From a virus, in the IMG/VR virus record IMGVR_UViG_3300028197_000982, positions 1-64,000 of that record: a DNA stretch of 64,000 bases, one strand, 5' to 3'. Position 1 is the stretch's first letter. Every line of letters starts with the position of its first letter. The position numbers were made by a program, and so were the translations under genes. The notes under the pieces were generated by a model. That model had not been told where the DNA came from. It was given only the letters and a program-made list of their open reading frames with translations, and did no database searches. Shown in pieces: positions 9,750 to 49,738 of this stretch.

Positions 9750-12700
9750 ATGGCATTCAATCTGAAAGAATATATCATCTATAGAGAAGAAGTTAAAAGG
9801 GAACTTTTTAATGGTGAGGTAGACAGTAACTTTAAAGCAGTAGCTAACCCTTGGGTAGACAATAGAACTTATAACGAAGGGCATGTAGTATACCACCCAG
9901 TAGAAGTAATTGATGTTACTGGTGGAACTAGCGTTTCATCAGAAGCTTTAGCATGGTGGAGAGCAAACAAAAGAACTACGCAAGGTGTTTTTGAAACTAG
10001 TGAATGGGACTTAATCGGTGGAATTGGTACAGGTGATCTTACTGTTACAGGTTCAAATAGCTATGGTAAGATTATTGTAAATTATACAGGTGCTGCTAGT
10101 TATCAATCAAATAATGATTTTACATTATCATCTTCTATACCAAATGATACTTTTAGGTTTGTTGCAGGTGATGGTGTACAATTACAATATGACCCTAGTG
10201 TAAATGCTATTAAATTAATTAATACATCTGCAGGTGGAGAAATAAACCAAGGATCTAATATAGGTATTAGTGGAGAGAATGTATTTGCTGGTATGAATGG
10301 TACTACATTAACATTCAGAAGTATTGATGCATCTAACTCAACATCAGTTATAGGTAATGCATTATCTGCTGGTTTTAATTCAGCTAATCAGAGTGTTGTT
10401 ATTAATTTTGATTCTTCAAATGTTGATTTAGCAACTCTTAATACAAATGCACCTTTAATTAATATGTTATCCGATGTTAACGCGCCATCTCCTGCTGCAT
10501 CAGATTTTTTGCAGTGGAATGGGACTACGTGGGTAAACGTAAGTGCCGCCGCCGCTGGTTTATTAGGTGCACAAGGTGCAACTGGTATACAAGGACCAAC
10601 TGGTGTACAAGGATCTATTGGACTGCAAGGTATACAAGGAACTACTGGAGCCGACTCTCAGGTGGTCGGGCCACAAGGACCTACTGGTGTACAAGGATCT
10701 ACTGGACCACAAGGTATACAAGGAACTACTGGAGCCGACTCAATAATTCCTGGAGGACCTGGCCCCCAAGGTGCACAAGGTATAACTGGTGCTCAAGGTG
10801 TACAAGGTATAACTGGTGCTCAAGGTGTACAAGGATTAACAGGAATACAGGGTGCGGTTGGTGAAAGCGGTACCTTTGGTGGTGCAACTTTTGATTATGA
10901 ATTTAATACATCAACCTCTGTGGCTGATCCTGGCTTTAGTTATGTTTCTTTAAACCAAACCATACAGAATACATCAACTATTATGTTAATTAATGATGAT
11001 GGTGTTACTGGTTCTGATATATCAAATTTTTTACAGACTATTGCTGCGTCGGCATCGATACCAAAAGGTTATGTTAGAATAACAGCAAAAGCTGATGCTA
11101 ATGAATTTTTACTTTTTCAAATTTCAGACTTAACTGATGCAGGTGGATACTGGGATATTGATGTAGTACCACAAGCATCTACTGCATCGGCACCATTTAC
11201 AATGGATGAAGATGTATTAGTATCGTTTGTTGTTACAGGTGAAAAAGGTGCACAAGGTGAACAAGGAACTCAAGGAGAACAAGGCATTCAAGGTGAAACT
11301 GGAATTCAAGGTATTCAAGGTGAAACTGGAATTCAAGGAGAACAAGGAACACAAGGTGAAACTGGAACTCAAGGTATTCAAGGTATAACCGGTACAGGTA
11401 CACAAGGTATTCAAGGGGAGCAAGGAACTCAAGGTATCCAAGGTATAACTGGTGCAGGTACTCAAGGTATTCAAGGAGAACAAGGAACTCAAGGTGAAAC
11501 TGGAACTCAAGGTATTCAAGGTATAACTGGTATAGGAGCACAAGGAGAACAAGGAGCACAAGGAGAAACAGGTACAGGTACACAAGGTATTCAAGGTATA
11601 ACCGGTAGTACTGGTTCTGTTAGTGGTACCGTTGCATACGGTTCTATGTTGCTATCAACTGGTGCTGCTGCCTTAACAGTTACTAATTCTTATGTAGGTT
11701 TATTATTACCTACTGGTGAATTAAATCAAATGTCATTCATTAATTCAGGTGGAAGCCCACAAGGTAATGTACTAAGTATTAATGCTAATGAAGCTGGTAA
11801 TTATGAACTTAACTTTAGTCTTAGTGGAACAACATCAACAAATGATGATATTTTTACCGAAGTATTTGTTAATGGTAGTCCGTATAATGGAAGTGGTGTT
11901 ACCGAGGTACGAACAAGCTTCACTGGAACTCTTTTTAATAGCATGTCTACTGTAGACATATTAGATCTTAATGGTGGTGATCAAGTTGAAGTAAGAATTA
12001 AGTGTTCAACTGCTAGTATAAATTTAACGCCATCTAATATTTCACTTACATTAGTTAAACTTGTAGGTAATGGTGTACAAGGTATTCAAGGTAATACCGG
12101 TGTACAAGGTACTACTGGTGCAGGTACACAAGGTACTCAAGGTATAACCGGTACACAGGGTGAAACTGGAACTCAAGGTGAAACTGGTACAGCTACACAA
12201 GGAACAACTGGTACCCAAGGAATAACTGGAAGTCAAGGTACTACTGGGACTCAAGGTACTAATGGTACCCAAGGAACAACTGGAAGTCAAGGAATAACTG
12301 GAAGTCAAGGAACAACTGGTACTCAAGGAACAACTGGTACCCAAGGAATAACTGGAACTCAAGGAGAACAAGGAACTCAAGGAAATCCTGGAACAACAGG
12401 AACTCAAGGTTTAAAAGGTATTCAAGGTATTCAAGGTATTCAAGGTATAACTGGTTCTCAAGGAGTAACTGGAACAGGTACACAAGGATCTACTGGTTCA
12501 CAAGGAGCAACTGGAACAGGTACACAAGGATCTACTGGTTCACAAGGAGCAACTGGAACAGGTACACAAGGATCTACCGGTGCTCAAGGAATAACGGGTG
12601 CACAAGGAACCTCTGGTAGTAGTGGTGGCTCGTTCGAAGTTCCACTTATGGAAACTAGTTATCAAATAGGCCGTAATATTTTGCCTGTAAGTGCAAATTC

Positions 12701-13214
12701 ATATTATGTTGGTGATCTAAACGGCTGGGATTCAAAGAGTTGGACTAATCAGTCTACTCATTTTATAGTAGGTACTACCCTAGGAAATGAAGCTATGAAT
12801 TGCGGCATACCTTTAGTTTATGATATAGTTAAAGGCGTTAGTCAAATAAGAGTAAGATTTACTTATTTTGCTGAGTTTAGTGCGGCCGCGCAAACCGTAC
12901 CGCAAATTATATTAAGACCTTATAAGTGGACCTGTGGTGGGTTTAATGGTGGGCAAGATTTGCAAATGGTTTCAGTAGGTGGCGAGCAATCTCTTACCTT
13001 AACTAATATCGGTAATAATTTCTGGTATGGCTGTGGAGACTTCACTTATCCAATTACCGAAGCAAATGGTGGTGGGCTTTTAGCCGCGGCTACTGGAGAG
13101 GCAGAGCCTGATAGATTATTTTTTGGATGGCGAGCTAATTCACTACAAGCAGTTACACACGCTCAGGGTGGTCAGATTAGTATAAAGTCTTGGGTTGAAT
13201 CTTCAGTAATATAA
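9750..13214 (+). CDS. Collagen-like tail fibre protein
   Basis: 1154 residues. The N-terminal ~90 residues contain an N-R-T-Y-N-E-G-H-V-V-Y segment and an A-W-W-R-A-N-K stretch, like carbohydrate-binding or virion-attachment modules. Then follow three collagen-type Gly-X-Y blocks (about 10566-10866, 11238-11602 and 12075-12620), dominated by G-I-Q-G, G-T-Q-G and G-x-T-G triplets. They are separated by two globular beta domains; the second (about 11620-12060) has a C1q/TNF-like jelly-roll look. A ~190-residue C-terminal globular domain with Trp-rich strands is the likely receptor-binding tip. Collagen triplets imply a trimeric triple helix. The near-identical DNA repeats inside the blocks could allow length change by recombination. 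Confidence 0.88.
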   Translation: MAFNLKEYIIYREEVKRELFNGEVDSNFKAVANPWVDNRTYNEGHVVYHPVEVIDVTGGTSVSSEALAWWRANKRTTQGVFETSEWDLIGGIGTGDLTVTGSNSYGKIIVNYTGAASYQSNNDFTLSSSIPNDTFRFVAGDGVQLQYDPSVNAIKLINTSAGGEINQGSNIGISGENVFAGMNGTTLTFRSIDASNSTSVIGNALSAGFNSANQSVVINFDSSNVDLATLNTNAPLINMLSDVNAPSPAASDFLQWNGTTWVNVSAAAAGLLGAQGATGIQGPTGVQGSIGLQGIQGTTGADSQVVGPQGPTGVQGSTGPQGIQGTTGADSIIPGGPGPQGAQGITGAQGVQGITGAQGVQGLTGIQGAVGESGTFGGATFDYEFNTSTSVADPGFSYVSLNQTIQNTSTIMLINDDGVTGSDISNFLQTIAASASIPKGYVRITAKADANEFLLFQISDLTDAGGYWDIDVVPQASTASAPFTMDEDVLVSFVVTGEKGAQGEQGTQGEQGIQGETGIQGIQGETGIQGEQGTQGETGTQGIQGITGTGTQGIQGEQGTQGIQGITGAGTQGIQGEQGTQGETGTQGIQGITGIGAQGEQGAQGETGTGTQGIQGITGSTGSVSGTVAYGSMLLSTGAAALTVTNSYVGLLLPTGELNQMSFINSGGSPQGNVLSINANEAGNYELNFSLSGTTSTNDDIFTEVFVNGSPYNGSGVTEVRTSFTGTLFNSMSTVDILDLNGGDQVEVRIKCSTASINLTPSNISLTLVKLVGNGVQGIQGNTGVQGTTGAGTQGTQGITGTQGETGTQGETGTATQGTTGTQGITGSQGTTGTQGTNGTQGTTGSQGITGSQGTTGTQGTTGTQGITGTQGEQGTQGNPGTTGTQGLKGIQGIQGIQGITGSQGVTGTGTQGSTGSQGATGTGTQGSTGSQGATGTGTQGSTGAQGITGAQGTSGSSGGSFEVPLMETSYQIGRNILPVSANSYYVGDLNGWDSKSWTNQSTHFIVGTTLGNEAMNCGIPLVYDIVKGVSQIRVRFTYFAEFSAAAQTVPQIILRPYKWTCGGFNGGQDLQMVSVGGEQSLTLTNIGNNFWYGCGDFTYPITEANGGGLLAAATGEAEPDRLFFGWRANSLQAVTHAQGGQISIKSWVESSVI
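10566..10866 (+). repeat. Collagen-like Gly-X-Y block A
   Basis: Approximate limits. Gly at every third residue, with G-I-Q-G and G-V-Q-G triplets and one interruption around 10744-10765. A 30-base DNA segment encoding Q-G-I-Q-G-T-T-G-A-D-S occurs twice, about 84 bases apart (starting near 10627 and 10711). Confidence 0.8.
11238..11602 (+). repeat. Collagen-like Gly-X-Y block B
   Basis: Approximate limits. About 120 residues of nearly unbroken Gly-X-Y, rich in G-E-Q-G, G-T-Q-G, G-I-Q-G and G-E-T-G. Four-residue G-T-G-T and G-A-G-T steps interrupt the triplet phase. Confidence 0.8.
12075..12620 (+). repeat. Collagen-like Gly-X-Y block C with exact 42-base tandem repeats
   Basis: Approximate limits. 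About 180 residues of Gly-X-Y. Near the end a 42-base unit is repeated exactly (12468-12509 and 12510-12551), followed by 24 bases of a third copy, encoding T-G-T-G-T-Q-G-S-T-G-S-Q-G-A. The identity at synonymous positions indicates recent duplication. Confidence 0.85.
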
Positions 13215-42776: not shown

Positions 42777-45743
42777 ATGGCAATCACCATACAAGATTTA
42801 CTTTCTTCAGATACAGTTTCACAGGCAGTTGATAAAATTAATTTTAATTTTGATCAATTATTACTGAATGGTGGAGGGCCTGTTGGACCACTTGGACCAG
42901 CCGGACCAGCCGGGCCAATAGGTGGTAGAGGAGAAAGAGGAACAGAATGGTACGAAGGTACTGATCTCCCAACCGTAACCCCACCAACAGCAACACCATT
43001 AAAGGCAGATTATTATCTGCAATCAAATGGAGATGTTTGGGAATACAGTGGATTAACTTGGGGTAATACTGGAATTAATCTAACTGGACCACAAGGACCA
43101 ACAGGAGCATCAATAGGGTGGTCTCAGTTTGGTAATAGTCCTAACCCAGGCTCTGCTGGTACTGATAATTATGATCTTACTGCAAAAAATCTTTCTTACC
43201 CAGCATTAATACCTAGCGGCTCTAATACGGTTAGTACAAACAACCAAGGTGTCCCTGCAACAGCATTCGGTATAGCAGGACCTAATGACAATGACTATCC
43301 TGGTGTACCGTTAACTTCAGCATTTCAGTTATCAACAACAATGGCAGGTCAATTAGACTCATCAAAAGTAACTATGCTAGTTCATCAAAAAGATACTGGC
43401 GTTAGAGCTATGTCATTTATGGGTGGTGGTGCTATTGCTGGAGAAAACTTTGAACAGAATGATTTAACAAACCTATCTACTATATTTTTAAGTAAAGATG
43501 ATAGATTAAATATTGCTATACCTAAAGCACCTGTGTTAGGTTCTACTGCAGATGAAAGAATTGGTTTTAGTATTGATGCAGGCTTTAGAGGTCAATCATT
43601 TAGGGCAGGTAATGGATTTACATTTACAACAGGTACTAAAAGTAATACTTCTTTTCCAGGTGATACATCTGATGTATCCTATATTTTAAACTCATTAACA
43701 GGAGCCGGTGAAAATGCTAAGTTTAATGTTAAAACAATAGGAACTGCTGGTTCTAACGATTTTACTATTGGAGAATTTCCATCTACTTCACCTTCACCAA
43801 GTAATGTGTATACTGGTGGAATGGTTTCTTTAACTAATAGATTTGGAGTTTACGCAGGTTCTCAAATAACTTTGGAAACTGCAGCATCTGGTGAGATTAC
43901 ATTAGTAGGCGTGAACAATACCTTAACTGTATCTGATACTTTTATAAATTTATCAGCGTCTGGAAATTCACCAATAAATATTACCTCTGTTTCTGGAAAT
44001 ATTACATGCGATGCAAATTCTGGTGAATTTAGAGGATATAGTGATGTAAAGGCAGAGCTTAAGTCAGGTACTAATCAAATTGCAGCAGAAGGCCCTGGTG
44101 GTGATATTAAACTTAGCGCACAAGAAGCTAATTCTGATATAACTTTAACAGCAGCACAAGGTATCGGAGGGCAAATAAGACTACTATCCGCAGATTCAAT
44201 TAGATTAAATGGATCAGGTGCAACGGACCCTTATATTGTTTTAGATTATACGAACTCTAACACAAATCATAGATTTATTCAGTATAAAGGTAGACAAGCA
44301 TGGGGTGATGCCGGTGTAGGATTTACTGGTACAATACCAGAGGATCAGTGGATTTATTTTGCTCCACCAGTAAATACTAATGAAACTATTCAACGATTTG
44401 GTAATGGTAATGGAGGACAACCTAACGGTACAATGTGGCAAGTTTATAATGGTGGTGCTGCTAGTGGAGAAAGTATTGCAATAGGTAGGCCTGATTATCC
44501 AACTGGGAATTCATCCAATTATGCCGGTATATTTGTTAATAGTGATGATAATGTACCACAACAAGTGGACAACGGTACTACTTCGGGCGGTGCAGCATCT
44601 TCAGATTATAATTCAGCTGAACAGTTTAGAGTAGATAAACAGAAAACTAAAATAAGTAATAAATTAATTTGGGGTGGACAAAATGGAATTGATACTAATT
44701 ATTATGATCCTTATCTAACCTTCGCGCCAAATCCAGATATAACTTGTTTTACACCTTACTATAGACTTGTTGTTGGTAGGTTTACACCAGTTACTACATC
44801 AAATATATCTGCACTACCAGCTTCACCTATCATATATAATTTAACCTTTAATCTTCAATTTAACACCGCTCTTGAGACTGTTGGACAAAGAGTATTAGTT
44901 GAAGTAGTAAATGTACCTAGTAAATTTGTGCTTACTACAGGTTCATGTTTTATTGCAGGTACTAGTATTAGTTTAGGTAATGGTGATTATAAAAATATTG
45001 AAGATGTTAGCCAAGGTGAAACGGTTATAACCTATAATGAAACTACAGGATTAAATGAAACTGGTATAGTAGGATCAATCACAGAGCACCAAGCCTCTTC
45101 TGTTATTAAGTTATTATTTGTAGATGGAACTAGTATTACTACAACACCAGAACACCCATTCTTTATAGAAGGTCAATGGGTTAAGGCTGGTGAATTACAT
45201 GTTGGAAATAATACTCATAAACTTGACGGTAGTAAATTAGCAATATCTGAAATTGAATTAATAGAAGAACCTCATACAGTATATAACTTATTAGATGTAG
45301 GCAATAACCATAACTTCTATGCAAATGAAACATTAGTACATAATAAAGGTGGTGGGACTCCACAATCAACAGTAAGACAGAGATATGGGAATATAACACT
45401 GAAGTATTGCCCATGGGGGGTTAATGGTACCGGAACTGCTGGATCGGGATTCTTTTCGACTGTAACTGCTGGTATAGTAAGTGCGTCAGAGGTTACAGCA
45501 AGTAGTAGTGGAGGTGGTTATGACGTGGTTGGAACTTGTAAGATATTTGAATTTGTATATGTTGGTCAATCAAATACATTTTATAATTCTAATGCTACTG
45601 ATACTGGAAATGAAGCTAAAATAGTAACGTCAGGTTGGCGATTCATAGGAGCCACTGATTCTGCCTTTTTCACGGCGGGTGTTGTACCAGATTTGAATAT
45701 GACATTTAATAGTCTTACTACAGGCGGGAGTGAAGGCGGTTAA
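42777..45743 (+). CDS. Fibre protein with collagen-like segment and intein-like Hint domain
   Basis: 988 residues. N-terminal attachment-like segment (1-30), collagen-type run G-P-V-G-P-L-G-P-A-G-P-A-G at ~35-50 and again G-P-Q-G-P-T-G near 107, then a long repetitive beta region typical of fibres (SGEITLVGVNNTLTV, S-P-I-N-I-T-S-V-S-G-N-I-T). Residues 724-856 are a Hint domain (separate entry). The C-terminal 132 residues (K857-G988) form a strand-rich, Gly/Ser-rich tip. Without Hint activity the domain would simply interrupt a beta domain; with activity the fibre is cut or spliced during maturation. Confidence 0.8.
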   Translation: MAITIQDLLSSDTVSQAVDKINFNFDQLLLNGGGPVGPLGPAGPAGPIGGRGERGTEWYEGTDLPTVTPPTATPLKADYYLQSNGDVWEYSGLTWGNTGINLTGPQGPTGASIGWSQFGNSPNPGSAGTDNYDLTAKNLSYPALIPSGSNTVSTNNQGVPATAFGIAGPNDNDYPGVPLTSAFQLSTTMAGQLDSSKVTMLVHQKDTGVRAMSFMGGGAIAGENFEQNDLTNLSTIFLSKDDRLNIAIPKAPVLGSTADERIGFSIDAGFRGQSFRAGNGFTFTTGTKSNTSFPGDTSDVSYILNSLTGAGENAKFNVKTIGTAGSNDFTIGEFPSTSPSPSNVYTGGMVSLTNRFGVYAGSQITLETAASGEITLVGVNNTLTVSDTFINLSASGNSPINITSVSGNITCDANSGEFRGYSDVKAELKSGTNQIAAEGPGGDIKLSAQEANSDITLTAAQGIGGQIRLLSADSIRLNGSGATDPYIVLDYTNSNTNHRFIQYKGRQAWGDAGVGFTGTIPEDQWIYFAPPVNTNETIQRFGNGNGGQPNGTMWQVYNGGAASGESIAIGRPDYPTGNSSNYAGIFVNSDDNVPQQVDNGTTSGGAASSDYNSAEQFRVDKQKTKISNKLIWGGQNGIDTNYYDPYLTFAPNPDITCFTPYYRLVVGRFTPVTTSNISALPASPIIYNLTFNLQFNTALETVGQRVLVEVVNVPSKFVLTTGSCFIAGTSISLGNGDYKNIEDVSQGETVITYNETTGLNETGIVGSITEHQASSVIKLLFVDGTSITTTPEHPFFIEGQWVKAGELHVGNNTHKLDGSKLAISEIELIEEPHTVYNLLDVGNNHNFYANETLVHNKGGGTPQSTVRQRYGNITLKYCPWGVNGTGTAGSGFFSTVTAGIVSASEVTASSSGGGYDVVGTCKIFEFVYVGQSNTFYNSNATDTGNEAKIVTSGWRFIGATDSAFFTAGVVPDLNMTFNSLTTGGSEGG
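44946..45344 (+). other. Hint (intein-like/BIL) domain inside the fibre protein
   Basis: 133 codons, Cys724 to Asn856. Block A: C-F-I-A-G-T-S-I, with the nucleophilic cysteine directly after Gly-Ser. Block B: S-I-T-T-T-P-E-H-P-F-F, carrying the T-x-x-H motif that drives the N-S acyl shift. Block F/G: H-T-V-Y-N-L-L-D-V, then H-N-F-Y-A-N and V-H-N, with the penultimate His and terminal Asn for cyclisation. The next residue is Lys857 rather than Cys, Ser or Thr, as in bacterial intein-like (BIL) domains, so cleavage is more likely than classical splicing. No homing-endonuclease insertion. Confidence 0.88.
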
Positions 45744-49183: not shown

Positions 49184-49738
49184 ATGATATTAAGTGCAAG
49201 AAATAACCAATTTAAATTTGAATTCCCTAGAAATTTTATACCTAAGGAAATTTCAAATAAATATAAACCATATTTAAATAGAATGCCAGGTTCAATGATT
49301 AAAGAACCTATCGACTATTTTAATTATGGTATACAGTCAATGAATCTACCAGGTCCTAGTTTTGATCCTGTATCACAAAATGATTTTCCAGGTAATACTA
49401 GAAGGTTTAGAACAAGTTTGCCTAAACAAGAATTATTTGATAAAGAACTAACAATAACAATGCAAGCCTTTGATGGTTGGGTAAATTATTGGATGGCTAT
49501 TGAGGTATTTGATTATTATTATGAGCAGAGTGGAAAAAATCCATTCGTACCTGAAGGTATAGGTTTACAGATGATTGATGGTGATGGAAATATTTTTGTT
49601 ACATGTCAATTAAAAGATATGATTATGACAGGTGTTAGTGCACTAGATTTAAACTTCTCAAGTAACACAATAGAATTCCAGACTTTTGAAATTAATTTTA
49701 CTTATAACATTTTAGAAACTGTAGTTAATCTTGTCTAA
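49184..49738 (+). CDS. Tail-tube-fold protein (gp19-like)
   Basis: 184 residues. N-terminal N-Q-F-K-F-E-F-P, a loop Y-F-N-Y-G-I-Q-S-M-N-L-P-G-P, then L-T-I-T-M-Q-A-F-D-G-W-V-N-Y-W and two closing strands (V-T-C-Q-L-K-D, then F-Q-T-F-E-I-N-F-T-Y). The strand order and F-E-I-N-F-T-Y closing strand fit the tail-tube family (T4 gp19 and its cap relatives gp48/gp54). gp19 is 163 residues in T4. A paralogue such as a tube cap is also possible. The stop overlaps a promoter-like element for the next gene. Confidence 0.55.
   Translation: MILSARNNQFKFEFPRNFIPKEISNKYKPYLNRMPGSMIKEPIDYFNYGIQSMNLPGPSFDPVSQNDFPGNTRRFRTSLPKQELFDKELTITMQAFDGWVNYWMAIEVFDYYYEQSGKNPFVPEGIGLQMIDGDGNIFVTCQLKDMIMTGVSALDLNFSSNTIEFQTFEINFTYNILETVVNLV

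Follow-up and report, generated by a model that had tools for sequence, protein, structure and literature searches.

What does a Hint domain do inside a viral structural protein when the residue that follows it is lysine rather than the Cys, Ser or Thr of class 1 inteins? The case considered here, from a marine phage, lies in IMG/VR record IMGVR_UViG_3300028197_000982 (74,922 bases), whose positions 1 to 64,000 form the window, i.e., the whole stretch of DNA that was analysed.

The Hint domain and its host protein

The features concerned, in window coordinates, are:

42777..45743, + strand: ORF of a collagen-like structural, probably fibre, protein of 988 aa, host of the Hint domain, lying among tail/baseplate-type genes
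42873..42938, + strand: N-terminal collagen-like GPxGPx stretch, about residues 33-54, with a weak match to phrog_1806 (collagen-like minor tail)
44697..44945, + strand: N-flank, residues 641-723, first part of the distal beta-rich domain (dS 1.4 against the diverged homologue L003)
44946..45344, + strand: Hint/BIL domain, C724-N856, 133 aa, in frame, recognised by Pfam, PDB sequence and fold
44946..44948, + strand: Cys724, block A, putative nucleophile of the N-S acyl shift
45144..45155, + strand: T790-P-E-H793, block B, with His793
45285..45287, + strand: Asn837 at the block-F position, Asp in canonical inteins
45339..45344, + strand: His855-Asn856, block G
45345..45347, + strand: Lys857 at +1, aligning as part of the insert
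45348..45740, + strand: C-flank or tip, residues 858-988, a GGG linker and then the remainder of the distal beta domain, homologous to Hint-free L004
25922-27778: neighbouring gene, baseplate wedge (phrog_219)
49184-49738: neighbouring gene, tail tube (phrog_45)

The 988-aa protein has a collagen-like N-terminal start (DKINFNFDQLLLNGGGPxGPxGP), and its collagen-like repeats, gene position and pattern of tip variation indicate that it is probably a fibre. The nearest named relatives of the neighbouring structural proteins belong to huge or jumbo phages, mostly with Bacteroidetes hosts (the uncultured 462-kb phage LR756500, Tenacibaculum phages PTm1/PTm5/pT24, Prevotella Lak phages and Chryseobacterium phages MA9V), and the record therefore probably represents one part of a larger myovirus genome. 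Separate from the Hint-bearing protein, the window encodes another large collagen-like one (1154 aa, 9750-13214) with many tail-fibre PHROG matches, and its phage structural cluster includes a weak match to Amidoligase_2 (PF12224; 23310-24608) below the curated cut-off.

The initial annotation had placed a Hint/BIL domain at exactly the coordinates that translate in frame to C724...N856, and the residues it listed are all present: Cys724, T-x-x-H and His-Asn856 (C1, T67-P-E-H70, H132 and N133 in Hint numbering), followed by Lys857. Two Pfam profiles match above their curated cut-offs (PT-HINT, E=3e-13; Intein_splicing, E=2e-9), and in a search of the virus record PT-HINT (PF07591; 55 bits, E=5e-16) has this single match in all its 74,922 bases. 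The best solved relatives by sequence are CthBIL4 of Clostridium thermocellum (2lwy, E=1e-10) and BIL2 of Tetrahymena BUBL1 (6y75/6tmm, 2e-9). An AlphaFold2 model of the region, with pLDDT mostly 93-98 in the Hint and poor flanks, likewise retrieves BIL2 (6tmm/6y75, E 3e-14) and CthBIL4 (2lwy, E 1.8e-12, TMt 0.89) in fold searches, all inteins scoring below. With these profile and PDB matches and every catalytic residue kept, the autocatalytic domain indeed looks intact. A chance resemblance to Hint is excluded by the Pfam scores above cut-off and the match to 2lwy, and an assembly artefact by two further contigs that carry the Hint at the same place, one near-identical (L002, 100%) and one diverged (L003, 79%).

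Pfam, the model and the fold search all assign the domain to the Hint superfamily, with a horseshoe fold and Cys at position 1. Its size (133 aa, within the 130-155 aa of A-type BILs), HN end and lack of an endonuclease, its +1 Lys where A-type BILs dispense with Cys, Ser or Thr, and its location in a variable region of a non-conserved protein (flanks 46-61% identical to L003, as against 98% for the N-terminus) are those of an A-type BIL. Canonical class 1 inteins of phage enzymes (ribonucleotide reductase, terminase, portal) share the fold and the block A, B and G residues, but have Cys or Ser at +1 in 92 of 92 and Asp in block F in 85 of 92 of those sampled (among the matches listed), and sit in conserved enzyme active sites, whereas the window has Lys857, Asn837 and a variable fibre loop. 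The PT-HINT domains of polymorphic toxins, which share PF07591 and an Asn in block F, precede a C-terminal toxin, whereas the C-flank here is the rest of the fibre domain and aligns with Hint-free fibres; Pfam matched no toxin family after the Hint. CthBIL4 shares the Cys1 family, TxxH, the HN end, the lack of an endonuclease and a length of about 135 aa, at about 31% identity, but lies in a cellular rather than a phage structural protein. BIL2 shares the NNHNFxANxxLxHN end and differs in its eukaryotic host, in its +1 residue (Met in the crystallised chain) and in having its reacting Lys in the C-flanking ubiquitin-like domain. The domain is of a known kind, the A-type BIL, and most likely represents a phage-associated subtype with a basic Lys/Arg +1 junction, carried as a mobile cassette.

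Insertion site and allelic history

That the domain is inserted, as its beta-rich surroundings had suggested, is confirmed by Hint-free homologues on two contigs (L004 and L005; 845 aa, 58% identical to the window fibre), in which NVPSKFTMTTS-GGGKSQSYARAAFG aligns with NVPSKFVLTTGS-[133 aa]-KGGGTPQSTVRQRYG of the window. This comparison, which the initial annotation had proposed, gives TTS-GGGKSQS as the Hint-free junction, against TTGS-[Hint]-KGGGTPQS in the window, and an insert that includes the lysine: Lys857 has no counterpart in the aligned Hint-free allele, so it came, and travels, with the Hint. Further, more distant homologues (L007-L010, L016) are likewise Hint-free, and for this fibre just two diverged lineages with the Hint came to light.

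In an AlphaFold2 model of the distal region of Hint-free L004 (mean pLDDT 70, best parts 85-93), built on a shallow alignment that makes the loop position fairly good and the domain model moderate, the insertion site falls between strands 91-97 and 104-118, i.e., in a predicted loop between two strands of one beta domain. A fold search of PDB and BFVD gave no match for this distal domain. Since the site lies within a single predicted domain, cleavage would split that domain, and the simple release of a 132-residue tip that had been envisaged appears doubtful.

The Hint domains of the window and L003, at the same site, are 84% identical with a dS of 0.35 (95% bootstrap 0.22-0.51), similar to the core of the protein (residues 341-540; 0.31, 0.20-0.45), whereas dS reaches 1.04 (0.72-1.69) in segment 541-723 just before the Hint and 0.75 (0.49-1.11) in the tip after it, a contrast that holds firmly at the 5' boundary but is suggestive at the 3' boundary, where the intervals of Hint and tip touch. 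Omega in the same comparison is 0.24 for the Hint, indicating purifying selection, and 0.65 for the tip. Because synonymous divergence should not track selection on the protein, Hint and flanks apparently differ in history, either through recombination of the tip regions around the domain or through movement of the domain between alleles. Low dS in the Hint against high dS in both flanks thus suggests that it behaves as a cassette of the form Ser/Gly-[Cys...His-Asn]-Lys-Gly-rich; no match to a source protein was found in the window's own record, which is a fragment.

The residue following phage Hint domains

The +1 lysine is no oddity but proved to be a class feature in two pattern scans that left this position free. 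The block-G pattern NHN[FY]xANxxhVHN yielded at least 121 distinct sites in IMG/VR, with 59 Cys, 34 Ser, 20 Lys, 8 Arg and no other residue at +1 among the matches listed, a tally that counts the window locus and L003 along with loci retrieved earlier for their resemblance to the Hint or the fibre, so that the sample is not purely blind. The block-A pattern CF[VI]xGTx[IV]xxxDG, restricted to HMM-bounded Hints ending in HN, gave Lys or Arg at +1 in 50 of 58 phage mini-Hints (45 K, 5 R; 38 of 46 after 80% de-replication) as opposed to 12 of 52 from GTDB cellular genomes (10 of 43 de-replicated; Fisher p=1.6e-8), where the boundary HMM, built on HN-K/R seeds, may favour that look, although it does not model the +1 column. 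Chance or composition is ruled out by the 8.4% of K+R over the next 20 positions in the phage set, and entropy in phages is 1.6 bits at +1 versus 3.3-3.7 at +2 to +6. Across this sample of intein-like domains in phage contigs, Lys or Arg at +1 is the rule (about 85%). Among open-access papers, our literature search found none that reports a group of BILs in phage structural proteins with Lys/Arg nearly fixed at +1.

Among the matches listed, the Cys1 motif and T-x-x-H are kept in all 29 full-length HN-K/R block-G sites, although the set was chosen on the C-terminal end alone. A stop codon follows within three residues of HN in 8 of 31 HN-K/R sites, while none of 100 HN-C/S/T sites has one within ten (both among the matches listed); some HN-K proteins end at HN-K-stop, without a C-extein, yet keep Cys1 and TxxH. 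Block-F Asp, so frequent at HN-C/S sites, occurs in 0 of 31 HN-K/R sites among the matches listed, a loss that is specific to K/R only with respect to canonical inteins, other cellular BILs also having Asn. The acidic residue of block B (T-x-D/E-H) was rejected as a partner of the lysine, being not specific to K/R (41/75 versus 25/47, p=1).

On a tree computed without the +1 column, the K/R label changes 13 times compared with 43.9 when shuffled (0 of 500 as low); deep support is weak, and a single origin of the K/R class is possible. Some cellular K cases cluster with viral ones, e.g., those of four Aeromonas genomes. After L003, the Hints nearest to that of the window (L166, L155, L154) belong to other proteins of structural type or with several Hints; for the L154 host protein, a search found no homologue without a Hint. 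In L093, an independent phage structural protein, there is a Hint that its homologues in Tenacibaculum PTm1 and Chryseobacterium MA9V-1 lack; the homologue is one ORF in PTm1 (L440, ORF-011) and is annotated as two (011, 012) in PTm5 (L444).

Other arrangements were observed alongside. One phage protein family (MKGTLFSADFVKDSNGNLRLLExNTDT...; L054, L056, L058, L061, L062, L095, L121, L164, L166) combines an N-part of ~450 aa, whose motifs may resemble the ATP-grasp fold, with one to three tandem Hints joined HN-R/K-x-CF and often ending HN-K-stop, the first active-looking Hint being preceded by an apparently degenerate one that ends HN-AP. At L291:2179-3354 (+), two tandem K-type Hints are directly followed by KSDARLKRNIEL; judged by eye, a tail-fibre domain of the peptidase-S74 (intramolecular chaperone) type may start here. 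Hint-like segments of a second type (CF[LVI]xGTxIxMxDGxxKxxxxxDxGxx, without an HN end) are C-terminal in phage proteins (L218, L219, L224, L238, L274, L285, L300), often right behind a K-type Hint.

Possible fates of the fibre protein

Hint domains are known from reviews to combine an N-S acyl shift at residue 1, aided by the block-B His, with Asn cyclisation aided by the penultimate His. In the window, Cys724 would take over the Ser723-Cys724 bond as a thioester with the aid of His793, and Asn856, aided by His855, would cyclise and free the C-flank. Lys857, then beside the thioester, could take up the N-flank on its alpha-amine once that is freed, the route argued for BILs whose +1 is not nucleophilic, or alternatively on its side-chain amine to give an isopeptide, an outcome comparable to that of Tetrahymena BIL2. 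The 133-aa domain would thereby be excised and the fibre rejoined as ...TTGS-KGGG..., near the Hint-free allele. Ligation without a +1 nucleophile was reportedly argued for BILs by Dassa in 2004 and Aranko in 2013. Excision with rejoining by an active phage-type BIL is favoured by the +1 K/R constraint, the in-domain site and the closeness of the spliced product to the Hint-free allele; we give it a probability of roughly 0.45, inferring from sequence the activity, the order of steps, the nucleophile and ligation over cleavage. That processing of some kind occurs, be it rejoining, cleavage or transfer, is very probable.

The domain might instead only cleave, by hydrolysis of the Ser723/Cys724 thioester and Asn856 cyclisation, leaving two pieces held as one beta domain or losing the tip. 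BILs without a +1 nucleophile are described in review as giving predominantly N- and C-cleaved products, which speaks against rejoining, and the absence of Cys, Ser or Thr at +1 and of the block-F Asp points the same way; cleavage alone, however, would leave the strong +1 K/R bias unexplained and would cut inside one predicted domain, and we regard it as a real but tentative possibility. The view that Lys is unsuitable for standard splicing holds as regards standard trans-esterification, but by analogy does not extend to joining as such: partial splicing is reported for A-type BILs despite their having no +1 Cys/Ser/Thr, and BIL2 is reported to form an isopeptide from its N-flank to a Lys epsilon-amine of different substrates (PMC8616854). 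The same BIL2 chemistry, in the closest fold, would be the model for an intermolecular transfer in which the carboxyl of residue 723, held as a thioester, passes to an amine on a second fibre chain, on some other virion protein or on the host surface, and HN-K-stop proteins that keep Cys1 and TxxH would suit such a transfer; yet the adjacent Lys857 would compete and no result here favours it directly, making it highly improbable. An inert Hint that decorates the fibre without reacting would fit a +1 residue that is non-nucleophilic in the standard sense, but is at odds with the catalytic residues kept in the window, L003 and the 29 full-length relatives among the matches listed, and with the low omega, and appears quite improbable. 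A maturation switch, or joining to another nucleophile, as initially proposed, is possible given the sequence.

As for the basic residue itself, Arg replaces Lys in 5 of the 50 phage block-A cases and is an implausible side-chain acceptor, which may mean that charge is what is conserved, and HN-K-stop proteins have nothing to rejoin, so the Lys need not serve ligation. Both observations weaken the case for Lys as an obligatory side-chain nucleophile and suggest a part beyond that of acceptor; the residue might, for example, assist Asn cyclisation or attack on the thioester electrostatically. BIL2 was rejected as a precedent for a +1 Lys, its own +1 being Met, so its Lys chemistry is an analogy for the window. 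A distinct phage BIL family in structural proteins could have the basic +1 as part of the catalytic unit, with the Lys amine taking the thioester to yield an isopeptide- or amine-ligated fibre or cross-linked chains; we consider this unlikely, although, if true, it would add a third chemistry to those of intein splicing and Hedgehog-type transfer.

The prevalence of Lys or Arg after phage Hints points to what may be a distinct kind of protein self-processing in virus particles. If active, these domains would mean post-translational remodelling of virion proteins, possibly with unusual covalent joints in fibres, and would supply protein chemistry with natural Hint domains whose junction already contains an amine acceptor, while the low-dS Hint between diverged flanks suggests a part in the shuffling of fibre tips. 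The Lys/Arg rule at +1 bears on how BILs act without a nucleophilic +1 side chain, a question since these domains were described.
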